DNA of 64,000 bases from Gemmatimonas sp. (GTDB lineage: Bacteria > Gemmatimonadota > Gemmatimonadetes > Gemmatimonadales > Gemmatimonadaceae). The stretch spans positions 1 to 64,000 of the forward strand of contig PNKL01000011.1 in NCBI GenBank assembly GCA_013822425.1. Reading direction: 5' to 3'. Both the position numbers and the translations under genes were made by a program. Shown here one piece after another: positions 3,797-8,836 of the stretch (its first letter is position 1; every line of letters starts with the position of its first letter). A model generated the notes under the pieces. That model did no database searches, was not told where the DNA came from, and saw only the letters and a list, made by a program, of their open reading frames with translations.

Positions 3797-3863
3797 AATC
3801 GAGAGTACGGCCATACTTGCACCACACCCACACGACGCCGACGATGGGCTCAGGAGACGGACG

Positions 3864-4811
3864 ATGGCCAAGTCCACGCTGGTGATTGCCATTGGCGGCA
3901 ACTCGCTCATCAAGGATCGGCAGCACATGAGCGTGCCGGATCAGTATCTCGCGCTGGGCGAGACCAGCGGGCACATTGCCCGCATCATCAAGGATGGCTG
4001 GCGCGTCGCCATCGGTCACGGCAACGGACCGCAGGTGGGCTTCATCCTGCGCCGTTCCGAACTGGCCGCCCACGAGCTGCACGAGGTACCGCTTGACGTG
4101 TGCGACGCCGACACGCAGGGCGCCATCGGCTACGAGCTGCAGCAGAACCTGGGGAACGACTTCAGGCGGATGCGGATCGACCGCCAGGCGGTCACCGTCG
4201 TGACCCAGGTCGAGGTCGATCGCGACGACCCCGCGTTCCACCACCCCAGCAAGCCCATCGGCTCGTTCATGGACGAGGTGCAGGCGCGGCAACGGGTGGA
4301 GCAGGATGGCTGGATCGTGCGCGAGGACGCGGGGCGGGGCTGGCGGCGGGTGGTTGCCTCGCCGCGGCCGGTGCGGATCGTCGAGGAGCGCGCGATCACG
4401 TCGCTGTTGCGGGATGACTTCGTCGTCATCACCGTGGGCGGCGGCGGTATCCCGGTCGTCGCCGATTCGCACGGCAGCCTGCATGGCGTTGCGGCCGTCA
4501 TTGACAAGGACTTTGCCTCGGCGCTCCTGGCCACCACCATCCACGCCGACGTCTTCATGATCACGACCTCAGTGGACCGGGTGGCGCTCGACTGGGGACG
4601 CGCGACGCAGCGCTGGCTGGACCGCCTGACGCTCGCCGAGGCGAAGGCCTACCTCGCGGAAGGCACCCATTTTGCATCGGGGAGCATGGCGCCGAAGATC
4701 GAGGCCTGTATCGAGTTCCTGGAGCGCGGCGGCCGCGAGGCGGTGATCACGAACCCGGAGAACATGGAGGGAGCGCTCGTGGGGCTCGCGGGGACCCGGA
4801 TTGTCGCTTGA
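3864..4811 (+). CDS. arcC: Carbamate kinase (ArcC/YqeA type)
   Basis: 315-residue amino-acid-kinase-fold enzyme catalysing carbamoyl phosphate + ADP to ATP + ammonia + CO2. Signature motifs are AIGGNSLIKD near the N-terminus, GHGNGPQVGF, and GGGGIPVV for nucleotide binding, with DKDFASALLA and a late GSMAPKIEA helix. Length is normal for the family. A Shine-Dalgarno GGAG lies 7 nt before the ATG. The gene diverges from hyuA-ygfK-ygeY, as YqeA clusters with these functions in E. coli, so ATP recovery from carbamoyl groups of purine or hydantoin breakdown is the likely role. No arginine deiminase or carbamoyltransferase gene is visible in the window. Confidence 0.9.
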   Translation: MAKSTLVIAIGGNSLIKDRQHMSVPDQYLALGETSGHIARIIKDGWRVAIGHGNGPQVGFILRRSELAAHELHEVPLDVCDADTQGAIGYELQQNLGNDFRRMRIDRQAVTVVTQVEVDRDDPAFHHPSKPIGSFMDEVQARQRVEQDGWIVREDAGRGWRRVVASPRPVRIVEERAITSLLRDDFVVITVGGGGIPVVADSHGSLHGVAAVIDKDFASALLATTIHADVFMITTSVDRVALDWGRATQRWLDRLTLAEAKAYLAEGTHFASGSMAPKIEACIEFLERGGREAVITNPENMEGALVGLAGTRIVA

Positions 4812-5236
4812 GTCCGGATTCGAGGGATCAGGTCAGCGCGACTGCGACAAGCGCCGCGGTTCCTTCGCGCGCTGGGAGTACCGGTTCATGCCGCGTCCGC
4901 TGTTTCGCCAGAACGCCTCGTCTTGGCATATGCACGCTACCGGTCCTTGCTGCAAGGCGTAACGCTGAAGAAGCGTGCGAGTGGGCGTTCATATCTGGGC
5001 GTACTCAGGTATCTCGTGGCAGTTCACGCGCTCACTGAGCCGGACACTCGGTTTGCGAGCCCACTACGCTGCAAGAGGTATGCGGATCCGCGTCGAATCA
5101 GGAGCACGGGGGCGGGCGAAATGAGTGTCTTGCATCTTCGGTATTTGTTCGGTATTCTAAACATGAACTTCCCTTCGCGGTCCGGCGCGAGAACCAACGT
5201 TGCAGCCCCCTGTTCCCTGCTCCCTGCACCAGGATC
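4812..5236. other. 425-bp non-coding gap upstream of dnaE2
   Basis: No convincing gene was found here. The gap has mixed composition, less GC-rich towards its right end (5130-5170). It contains a tandem 9-bp repeat that could be an SOS-type operator (5137-5156) and ends in a TTCCCTGCTCCCTGCACC-type pyrimidine-rich word just before the polymerase start. Similar words recur at other gene boundaries in the window. Confidence 0.5.
5137..5156 (+). promoter_or_regulatory. Candidate SOS (LexA-like) box upstream of dnaE2
   Basis: The word TTCGGTATT occurs twice, at 5137-5145 and 5148-5156, stepping by 11 bp. The arrangement reads CTTC-N7-GTTC, one base from the GTTC-N7-GTTC direct-repeat operator of alphaproteobacterial LexA. 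It sits about 80 bp before a gene class (dnaE2) that is usually under SOS control. The LexA specificity of this organism is not known from the window. Confidence 0.4.
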
Positions 5237-8200
5237 GTGTCCGTGTACGCCGAGCTCCACTGCCATTCCACGTTCTCGCTGCTCGACGGCGCCTCCGACC
5301 CGGAGCGCCTCGTGGAACGCGCGGTGGAACTGGGCCTCCCTGCCCTCGCGCTCACCGACCACGACGACTTGGGCGGCGCGGTGCGGTTTGCCACTGCGGC
5401 GAAGGCGGCGGGGCTCGCGGGGATTATTGGCGTTGAGCTGACGGTGAGCGCAGGGGCAGGCATTGCTTTCGGCGATGCGCTCCCACGGACGGTGAGCGCT
5501 GGGGCAGGCGTTCCTTCCGGCGATGCGGCCGCAGGACCGCGCAGCGGTCCGAGAGCATCGCCGGAAGGAATGCCTGCCTCGGCGCTCTCCCACCTGGTGC
5601 TGCTAGCCGAAAGCCGCGACGGCTACGCCAACCTCTCGTCGCTCATCACCCGCGCGCGCATGGACAACCCGCGCGGCACGCCGCGCGTTTCGCTTGACAC
5701 GCTCGCACGGCACGCCGATGGGCTGTACGCGCTCACCGGCTGCGCGCGCGGCGCGGTGCCGCAGGCGCTGCTGCGCGGCGGACGCGACGCGGCGTGCGAA
5801 TCGCTCGCCACCCTGCTCGACATCTTCGGGCGGCGCGTCTCCGTGGAAGTGTGGGATCATGCCATTCCCGAGGAGCGCGAACTCGCGCGCGAGCTCATCG
5901 CCGTATCACGCGCCCTCGACGTGCCGTGGGTGGTGACCAACGACGTGCACTACGCGCGCGCCACGCAGCGGCTCGCGCACGACGTGCTCTGCGCGCTGCG
6001 CCACGGTGAGACGCTCGAGGCCATGGGCACGCGCCTGCGCCCCAACGGCGAGTGGTACCTCAAGGGACACGCGCAGATGCGCCGCCGCTGGCAGGACGAT
6101 GACGCGGGCATCAAGCAGACGCTCGCCATCGCCGAGCGGTGCGCGTTCCGCCTGCAGGACCTGAAGCCGCGCCTGCCGCACTTCACCCTGCCGCCCGGCG
6201 TGAGCGAGGACGAGTATCTCGCGCGGCTTGTCGAGGGCGGCGCCGCGGAGCGGTGGGGGTGGCGGCGCACGGCGCGACACGACAAGCAGCTGGAGCACGA
6301 ACTCGCCCTCATCGCCAAGCTCGGGCTTGCCGGTTACTTCCTGATCGTCTGGGACATCGTGCGCTTCGCGCGCCGCGACGGGATCCTCTGCCAGGGGCGC
6401 GGTTCGGCGGCCAACAGCGCCGTCTGCTACTGCCTCGGCATCACGGCGGTGGATCCCATCAAGCTCGAGCTGCTGTTCGAGCGCTTCCTCAGCGAGGAGC
6501 GCACCGAGGCGCCCGACATTGACATCGACTTCGCGCACCGCGACCGTGAGCGCGTGCTGCAGTACGTGTACGAGCGCTACGGCCGCGAGCACGCGGCGAT
6601 GGTGTGCGAGCACATCACGTGGCGCGGGCGCAGCGCGGTGCGCGACGCGGCGCGTGTGCTTGGCTTCTCGCCGCAGCAGGCGGAGGAGCTGGCGCTTAGA
6701 GCCGACCGGCTGGGGATGCAGTTCATGCCGGGCACGCAGGCCTACCAGCGCATGCGGGAGGAGCGCGAGGCGCATCGGCGCGGGGCGGGTGCGGTGACGG
6801 CGAGTGCGGTGGCAGGCGCTGCGACAACGGTGGATGCGGTGGCAGTGGCCGGTGCAGTAGCCGATGCAGTGGCGGACGGCGATGTCCCGTCCCGCGAGGC
6901 GGCGGGGGCTGATATCCCGTTGCACGAGGCTCTCGGACCGCTGCGCGGTCCTGCGGCCGCCTCGTGCAACGGGACATCAGCCCCCGCCGCCCCCCACACG
7001 TTGGCTGACATCGTAGAACAGCTCGCCGAGGCCCCGCGCCACCGCGGCATCCACGTCGGCGGGTTCGTCCTCACCGAACAGCCACTGTGCACCATCGTCC
7101 CCATCGAGCCCGCGGCGATGGCCGGACGCACCGTCATCCAATGGGAAAAAGACGACCTCGACCCCGTGGGGCTCGTCAAGATCGACCTCCTCGGCCTCGG
7201 CATGCTTACGCTGCTGCAAGACTGCATCAAGTACGTGCGCGCCACGCGCGGCGTGACCATCGAGCTCTCGCAGCTCGACATGAACGATCAGGCGGTGTAC
7301 GACGACCTCTGCCACGCCGACACGGTGGGCGTTTTCCAGGTGGAGAGCCGCGCGCAGATGAACACCCTCCCGCGGCTCAACCCGCGTTGCTTCTACGATC
7401 TCGTCGTCAAGGTGGCGCTCATTCGTCCGGGACCCATCCAGGGCGAGATGGTGCATCCCTACCTGCGGCGTCGCGCGGGAGAAGAAGAAGTCACGTATCC
7501 GCATCCGTCGCTCGAGCCGGTGCTCAAGCGCACGCTCGGCGTGCCGCTCTTCCAGGAGCAGGGAATGCAGGTGGCCATCGTCGCCGCGGGCTTCACGCCG
7601 GGCGAGGCCGACGTGCTGCGCAAGGCGATGGGGCACAAGCGCAGCCACGAGCGGATGGCCGCCATCTGCCAGAAGATGATCGCCGGCATGAAGGCCAACG
7701 GCATTCCCGAGGACATCGCCCAGCGGATCTACCAGCAGATCAACGCCTTCGCCGACTACGGCTTTCCCGAGAGCCACGCGGCGAGCTTTGCGCTCATCGT
7801 CTACGCCAGCGCCTATCTGCGGCACTACTACGCGGCCGAGTATCTGTGCGCGATCCTCAACGCCCAGCCGATGGGCTTCTACAGCGAGGGGACGCTGGTG
7901 GAGGACGCCAAGCGGCACGGCGTGAAGGTGATGGGCGCCGACGTGACGAAGAGCGGATGGGACCACCAGATGGTGTGCGCCGACGGGAAGATTGTCCGGC
8001 CAAGAGATGGTGTTGTATTCGTCGGCGCAGAGAAACAACAGAGAGACAACAGAGAGACAACAGAGAAACAACAGACGCGCGATCTACCATCTACCATCCA
8101 CCATCTACCATCTGCCCCTGTCGTGCGCCTCGGCCTGCGCTCCATTCGGGGTCTGGGACCTGACGCCCGCGATCGCATCGGCCGGGCGCGGACGGGGGGC

Positions 8201-8836
8201 GGGTTCCGGTCCATCGACGATTTCGTGCAGCGCACGCAGCTCGACCGCCGCGCGCTGCGTCTCCTCGCCGAATCGGGCGCGCTGGACGCGTTCGTGCGCG
8301 ACGAACCCGCGCCGCGGCGTCGGCGCGTGGCGCTGTGGAAGGTGCTCGAGGCACAGCGCGGGAGTGGCGGGCCGCTCGCGCTCTTCCCCGAGGTGGAAGT
8401 GCCGAAGACGCTTCCCGCCTACACGGCGCCGGAACTCACCGAGGCGGACTACCGGCTCACCGGCGTGTCACTGCACGGCCATCCGATGCGCCACCTGCGT
8501 GCGCTGCTCAAGCTCAACGATGTCGCCACCGCCAAGGCGCTGCTCACGGAAGGGCGGGACGGCGCGCCGGTGGGGATGGCGGGCCTCGTGATCTGCCGCC
8601 AGCGCCCGGGGATGGCCAAGGGATTCGTCTTCCTGACGCTCGAGGACGAGACGGGGATGGTGAACGTCGTCGTGACACCGCAGGCGTTCGAACGGCAGGC
8701 GCTGCTGATCTCGCGTACGCCGTTGCTGCTCGTGCGCGGCGTCCTGCAGGTGGGGCAGCGCGTCGTCCACATTCGCGCACACGAGTTCTTTCCACTCGAG
8801 GGAACCATCGAGGCGCGGTCGCACGATTACCGCTGA
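5237..8836 (+). CDS. dnaE2: Error-prone DNA polymerase III alpha subunit, DnaE2 type
   Basis: 1199-residue C-family polymerase used in translesion synthesis and damage-induced mutagenesis. An N-terminal PHP domain starts [17 protein letters not shown]. The palm carries [15 protein letters not shown] near residue 430 (catalytic aspartates) and [14 protein letters not shown]. Helix-hairpin-helix and OB-fold regions follow ([10 protein letters not shown], then [17 protein letters not shown]). The GTG at 5237 is used here; GTG 5243 fits the family N-terminus and the AGGA motif slightly better. No imuA/imuB genes are adjacent. Three in-frame segments look foreign to the family: residues about 70-117, 514-588 and 925-960. 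They are alanine/glycine-rich or repetitive and correspond to DNA hairpins or repeat words (annotated separately). They fall in probable loops, so the enzyme may still work. Confidence 0.9.
5441..5587. repeat. Hairpin repeat inside dnaE2, copy 1 (direct repeat + arm + 28-bp core + inverted arm)
   Basis: A 38-bp unit (5441-5478) is repeated imperfectly at 5489-5526. The second unit ends in an arm (5494-5526) that pairs with 5555-5587 at 30 of 33 positions (22 of 23 in the inner part). Between the arms lies a 28-bp core at 5527-5554 containing the mini-hairpin GGACCGCGCAGCGGTCC. The whole element is in frame with the polymerase. The core is identical, in reverse complement, to 6931-6958. Confidence 0.85.
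6878..6988. repeat. Hairpin repeat inside dnaE2, copy 2 (inverted core, different arms)
   Basis: Arms 6901-6930 and 6959-6988 pair at 29 of 30 positions around a 28-bp core (6931-6958). That core is the exact reverse complement of the copy-1 core. A degenerate version of the left arm precedes it (6878-6900 resembles 6908-6930, 17 of 23). The arms share no obvious sequence with copy 1, so only the core and the architecture are conserved. Translation is in frame and yields Ala/Gly/Pro-rich residues. Confidence 0.85.
8029..8113. repeat. Simple repeat words inserted in frame in dnaE2, copy 3
   Basis: Tandem AGAGACAACAG-type words (8029-8074) are followed by CTACCATC-type words (8083-8113). They encode a polar Gln/Arg/Thr stretch around residues 932-958, just before the conserved [12 protein letters not shown] segment. 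The first word also builds the intergenic hairpin at 57932-58056. The second word recurs between genes at 40220-40250. Confidence 0.8.

Follow-up and report, generated by a model that had tools for sequence, protein, structure and literature searches.

Within the 64,000-nucleotide stretch of a Gemmatimonas sp. genome (G000) analysed here, hereafter the window, the dnaE2 gene carries two long palindromes that have the same tip in opposite orientation, and the locus raises the question of what kind of element these inserts represent and how it came to reside in the gene of an error-prone polymerase. The dnaE2 reading frame continues uninterrupted through both of them over its full 1199 aa. The features discussed below are as follows.

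5237..8836, plus strand: dnaE2, error-prone DNA polymerase III alpha, a 1199-aa open reading frame with DnaE2 homologues in relatives
5440..5487, plus strand: incomplete tandem duplicate of insert 1's left arm that has neither core nor right arm, 83% identical to 5488-5535
5491..5590, plus strand: insert 1, located in a PHP-domain loop (residues about 75-117); its core reads in sense and its arms span 5491-5526 and 5555-5590
5526..5556, plus strand: constant core of insert 1, CGGCCGCA / GGACCGC-GCA-GCGGTCC / GAGAGC
6871..6903, plus strand: partial left-arm copy ahead of insert 2, resembling the left arm 6898-6930
6898..6991, minus strand: insert 2, the whole hairpin antisense, in loop M2 just before the conserved LADIVEQL
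6929..6959, minus strand: constant core of insert 2, the reverse complement of 5526-5556
8030..8116, plus strand: third variable DnaE2 loop (residues about 919-960), filled by 11-bp and 7-bp repeats

The original prediction described the cores at 5527-5554 (plus) and 6931-6958 (minus) as exact reverse complements, which they are; the identical stretch in fact extends over 31 nt, CGGCCGCAGGACCGCGCAGCGGTCCGAGAGC. The 36-nt arms of insert 1 are 89% paired, with the predicted 30/33 pairs in the inner 33 nt, and the 33-nt arms of insert 2 are 97% paired (32/33, slightly above the 29/30 claimed). The partial direct repeats of the left arm that had been noted ahead of both inserts are likewise present. 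Folding as ssDNA yields -51.2 kcal/mol for insert 1 (z = -9.1 vs shuffled sequence) and -56.3 kcal/mol for insert 2 (z = -11.4). The inner 17-nt palindrome is found in two exact copies in the 64-kb window, where 0.16 would be expected even at up to two mismatches, and the shared core is therefore far beyond chance. The R1 covariance model matches insert 1 at 5497-5584 (E = 5.5e-20) and insert 2 at 6901-6988 on the minus strand (E = 2.2e-20). Alignment places the inserts in predicted loops of the DnaE2 protein. The site of insert 1 is empty in G127, and the loop corresponding to window positions 8030-8116 holds a core hairpin in G023 and G030. Just a short imuB fragment (G000:C45:8019-8168, L199) was found in the window's genome, away from dnaE2; the gene may have been disrupted or have diverged, or the assembly may have lost it.

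In the window's genome, the 25-mer core occurs only twice, even with 3 mismatches. Exact copies were retrieved from 11 stretches, all of them from Gemmatimonadota, in a search of one genome per species across bacteria and archaea. Screening of 179 genomes from the window's own family and the R1 covariance-model search together give a total of 46 copies in about 19 genomes, which represent genera g1, g7, g23 and g31 of one bacterial family and carry 1-8 copies each. Outside this family, a degenerate core search of 395 genomes of the phylum returned chance-like matches only, the core was not found in viral contigs, phages or plasmids, and a search of Rfam produced no family above its gathering score, with sub-threshold hairpin matches only. 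Among the core matches with 2-3 mismatches, L059 (G134) was confirmed by the covariance model, and L051 and L062 were judged spurious. Most of the genomes are incomplete assemblies, many of them metagenomic; the near-closed G149, G137 and G138 agree with the overall picture. This is in agreement with the proposal of an undescribed element family: the proposal had named absence of the core elsewhere as the contrary outcome, and the core search in relatives instead returned copies at other loci.

The copies are unevenly placed. Thirty-three of the 46 lie in frame within imuA, imuB or dnaE2, and the other 13 are intergenic, adjoining unrelated genes, among them asparaginase, envC/amidohydrolase, map/adk, lon and glyoxalase (several of these assignments come from reading the translations). 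The three imu genes are estimated to account for ~0.2% of the genome (about 6.3 kb of 3.2 Mb), and chance would place about 0.1 copies in them vs the 33 seen, a comparison in which the copies are not independent because all carriers fall in a single DnaE2 clade. Across the three genes, no fewer than six distinct positions are occupied (DnaE2 loops N, M1, M2 and C; ImuA; ImuB), with six copies distributed over three loops in the dnaE2 of G023. A sense copy in loop M2 is common to all four genera, and where a genome has a single imu copy it is in sense orientation in eight of nine cases, G120 having an antisense copy only. An intergenic copy next to map/adk is found in both G134 (L059:4148-4237) and G140 (L063:2789-2878), with strongly diverged arms, and was probably inherited vertically.

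A gap-free structure alignment of 36 distinct copies defines a common fold of about 90 nt, in which arms of ~29 bp lead through a GGCCGCA/GAGA internal loop to an inner stem of 7 bp capped by a triloop. Almost every triloop has the sequence GNA, whose central position can be C, A, T or G; GCGNAGC is a known extra-stable DNA mini-hairpin. Compensatory changes on both sides are observed in 26 of 33 pairs, 93% of the cells are paired, and the covariation score is 0.547 compared with 0.141 for shuffled and at most 0.122 for slid alignments. Even the inner stem has compensatory variants (GGACGCC/GGCGTCC and GGACCCC/GGGGTCC). Inverted pairs of hairpins are frequent and are arranged with the antisense member first by gene direction (core minus, then plus), 108-344 bp apart.

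The core and the arms have evolved very differently, as the original prediction of a constant core with variable arms implied. Between genera, the core is identical at 28/28 positions, while four-fold sites of dnaE2 are 0.50-0.60 and the arms 0.42-0.63 identical; this comparison involves mostly genomes with one copy, and G021 is off at one position. The frame in which the core is read differs between copies: it encodes an 11-residue peptide in g1, a 10-residue peptide in g7 and g31, and another peptide of 11 residues in antisense, so the constraint acts on DNA or RNA and not on the peptide. Sense copies use only two of the three frames, and antisense copies always encode the one 11-residue peptide. 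A G-T excess is present on the core strand of coding copies, in sense and antisense alike (43:23), and is not seen in intergenic copies (4:10); the excess is small and the copies are not independent.

Identity of the arms across copies averages 52%. The two arm pairs of the window were initially thought to be unrelated, which is true only superficially, since the arms are homologous across the family, highly diverged, and fall into clear subfamilies. In G023, arms at different loops are 0.79-0.93 alike vs at most 0.68 for the orthologous site elsewhere, and in G030 the within-genome arms are 0.88 alike. Because arms of the same genome are closer than arms of the same site in other genomes, copies in lineages of this type have either spread across the imu genes or undergone homogenisation there. 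The M2 copies of g1 and g31 track descent, with identities of 0.63-0.98.

In g7 the inverted pair is one copied unit, present in three DnaE2 loops of G023, in ImuA of G031 and G038, and at two intergenic loci of G037. The paired units of the three G023 loops are 0.79-0.87 alike over about 350 bp vs 0.66 for shuffled sequence. In G037, a 236-bp unit occupies two intergenic loci with 92.8% identity and unrelated flanks; its outer inverted ends are imperfect and it has no convincing target-site duplication. The notion of the pair as one fixed unit is true of g7 and was rejected for the family, the g1 members being separate loop sites around native DnaE2 sequence. Two intergenic paired-unit loci with differing cores are seen in G037 and G025 (L168:4776-5010, L169:4640-4874, L180, L190). 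The G037 sites were considered as fresh insertions and rejected as such, as both are occupied in G025 by related units with a different core, a pattern that points to concerted evolution or to replacement of units at fixed positions.

Insert 2 of the window is a whole-hairpin inversion relative to the sense element of G127, G122 and G123, and the flip can be recognised by the shared mismatch GATGTCCCG/CGGGATATC. The partial copy at 6871-6903 is oriented like the unflipped relatives, and the same upstream duplicate is present in G127. Most arm changes affect the two sides of the stem together: the ratio of paired to single changes is 6:0 between G000 and G123 and 5:0 between the N+ and M2 copies of G023. 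Template switching is documented to homogenise the arms of inverted repeats (PMC8604942) and to invert the intervening spacer (PMC8794818). Judged from the aligned copies, the two-sided arm changes and the whole-hairpin flip appear to be signatures of this process. Duplications of half a hairpin recur, at window 5440-5487, in ImuA of G031 and in loop N of G122. Elements are also lost: of the whole elements found in its close relative G030, G036 retains half an element and the remnant of an arm, and copies are lost or truncated in G143 and G146 compared with G149 and G140. The original prediction that snap-back copying is at work is thus borne out in so far as template switching would homogenise existing arms and flip the hairpin; the further suggestion, in which flanking DNA is copied under the direction of the core, is not supported as it stands, as the arms are homologous, up to 0.93 between sites within one genome, and therefore travel with the core.

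The Y1/TnpA-REP transposase envisaged at the outset is absent from most carriers. Y1 (PF01797) was detected among them only in G000 and G122, and Y1_Tnp is absent in all others, including the single-contig G149 and the near-complete G137, G138 and G031. No mobilising enzyme was found, the Y1 family being the only one searched; nor was a copy seen to move, and there is no convincing target-site duplication among the copies and no clean empty/filled pair for any intergenic copy. At the foot of the hairpins, the tetranucleotide GTAG occurs in 1 of 78 flanks and CGTC in none of the 78.

Palindromes of other kinds occupy the same loops. Where a g1 genome lacks the core in one of its DnaE2 loops, the place is usually taken by another palindrome, made of inverted 7-bp repeats; the DnaE2 loops thus accommodate palindromes of at least two origins. 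Degenerate in-frame arrays of 7-bp repeats (GAYGGNN) are found in g1 DnaE2 loops (L068, L070, L071 and L069 of G128, G125, G126 and G129, respectively, and window 8030-8116). Such arrays are common genome-wide, with 251 pattern matches vs 166 for the reversed control; none of 30 sampled matches was in a detectable coding context, by a test that misses some true coding sites, and the dnaE2 array is coding. Sister families with other apical stems are present in g1 and G025. The g1 sister hairpins have the same GGCCGCAGGACC...GGTCCGAGAG frame and a longer apical stem, GACGGCGCGCGCAGCGCGC, with at least four copies in G122 (g1 sister hairpins: L172:2866-2975, 3850-3961 and 4977-5086; L173; L174; L175). 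An unrelated long hairpin with the apex GCGAGCCGCAGGCTCGC at L176:3522-3604 in G086 is possibly another element family, of genus g15.

Compared with known systems, the constant-core family is nearest in behaviour to the Rickettsia palindromic elements (RPEs) and nearest in anatomy to REPs, and is a member of neither. RPEs are palindromic repeats of about 100-150 bp that are found in frame in protein genes, with preferred frames, and between genes (PMC10969869), and the 33 copies in imuA, imuB and dnaE2 are likewise in-frame palindromes in coding genes. However, RPE families conserve the whole sequence and the peptide and reside in many unrelated genes, whereas here only the apical core is conserved, the arms covary and the coding copies are confined to three genes; with arms 52% identical and three peptides, the conserved repeat and conserved peptide in unrelated genes that characterise RPEs are not observed. 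REPs of the GTAG/CGTC type are also short hairpins with frequent inverted dimers, and a 2013 study described REPs that lie within dnaE2 and further repair genes, sometimes as a species' only coding sequences with the tag, which it judged unlikely to be fortuitous (PMC3733652). REP stems are 5-13 bp compared with arms of about 29 bp here, and the present family differs further in the lack of a tag, the 1-8 copies, the absence of Y1 from most carriers and the conserved tip. REPINs and BIMEs with their RAYT resemble it as an inverted hairpin pair acting as one replicating unit, but are extragenic, RAYT-dependent and of high copy number (usually over 100), none of which is true here. Long palindromes in functional coding genes are known from Nematomorpha mitochondria, with identical arms possibly maintained by template switching (PMC6649704); these have no constant core, have perfect arms, and consist of conserved protein sequence instead of inserts. 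MITEs share with the 236-bp G037 unit and the G023 loops the copying of a small non-coding inverted-repeat unit as a whole, but no convincing target-site duplication was found here, nor a related transposon in a search that covered the Y1 family, and the coding copies are concentrated in one gene set.

The data establish the fold, copies at many loci, recent spread in imu genes, the frozen core, the flip and in-frame residence in loops, and the explanation we prefer, with confidence that is about even, is that these are non-autonomous hairpin repeats, recognised by their tip, spreading mainly within the imu genes and maintained by template switching. In such a scheme, the apical core would be the part contacted by a putative factor and the arms would merely need to pair. 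Copying within the imu genes would be mainly short-range and presumably replicative, long-range transfer to intergenic sites would be rare, and two hairpins in inverted orientation, about 200-390 bp in all, would often serve as the unit. Template switching at replication would maintain arm pairing, duplicate half-hairpins and invert the unit. The core would be retained through a hairpin-binding protein or enzyme, for which the folded core strand is a likelier target than the host mRNA; host mRNA as the folding strand is weakly disfavoured, as antisense copies, too, have their G-T excess on the core strand. A stronger version, in which hairpins with a constant core and free but pairing arms reside specifically in the error-prone mutasome genes, are copied around them, have a dedicated putative recogniser and affect mutagenesis, is doubtful. 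The imu bias can be explained without targeting by one old arrival and local copying, because the carriers are one DnaE2 clade.

The main rival holds that the frozen core serves the host in the mutasome genes as a domesticated site at which a structured nucleic acid is kept, such as a hairpin bound in the course of repair or an mRNA element that adjusts the imu proteins, with mobility mostly in the past. We regard this as somewhat unlikely but serious: the core is frozen in single-copy genomes in which four-fold sites are near saturation, a conservation for which host function is no worse an explanation than mobility, and the M2 sense copy of all four genera, the sense orientation of eight of nine single imu copies and the 33 of 46 copies within imu genes point in the same direction. 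It is harder to reconcile with copies lost or truncated in close relatives (G036 vs G030; G143 and G146 vs G149 and G140), with the existence of both orientations, G120 being antisense only, with a G-T excess that tracks the core strand and not the mRNA strand, and with intergenic copies next to unrelated genes. A reading in which old palindromes with nothing special about their core formed by template switching in tolerant loops and were simply inherited would account for the unrelated 7-bp-repeat palindromes in the same DnaE2 loops, which are hypervariable across the family, and for the evident template switching. This is improbable; it is contradicted by the same core at unrelated loci, leaving unexplained both the copied paired units and an identical 28-nt core at non-homologous loci in four genera. 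Still a little less probable is a REP/REPIN-type element moved by a Y1/RAYT transposase, in spite of the inverted pairs, an apical GNA loop of the type that several REPs have (PMC2817692, Table 1), the intragenic REPs on record in dnaE2 (PMC3733652) and the Y1 gene in the window's genome and in G122. The lack of Y1_Tnp in the remaining carriers, among them G149, G137, G138 and G031, largely refutes it, and the foot without a GTAG/CGTC tag and the 1-8 copies per genome do not agree with it either. Selection on the encoded peptide as a flexible linker in DnaE2, ImuA and ImuB is very improbable: the uniform antisense peptide and the use of two sense frames would fit, but one conserved nucleotide string gives three different peptides, intergenic copies are conserved too, and the residues encoded by the arms are unrelated.

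REPs resident in dnaE2 were already known (PMC3733652). The present family, in Gemmatimonadota, is separate from them and has 33 of its 46 copies in repair and error-prone polymerase genes of the kind noted in 2013 (PMC3733652). The hairpins provide a natural example of a frozen tip with arms that are kept paired, probably by template switching, and the relatives are numerous enough for core, arms, orientation and frame to be told apart, which makes the entry of such repeats into mutasome genes a testable question.
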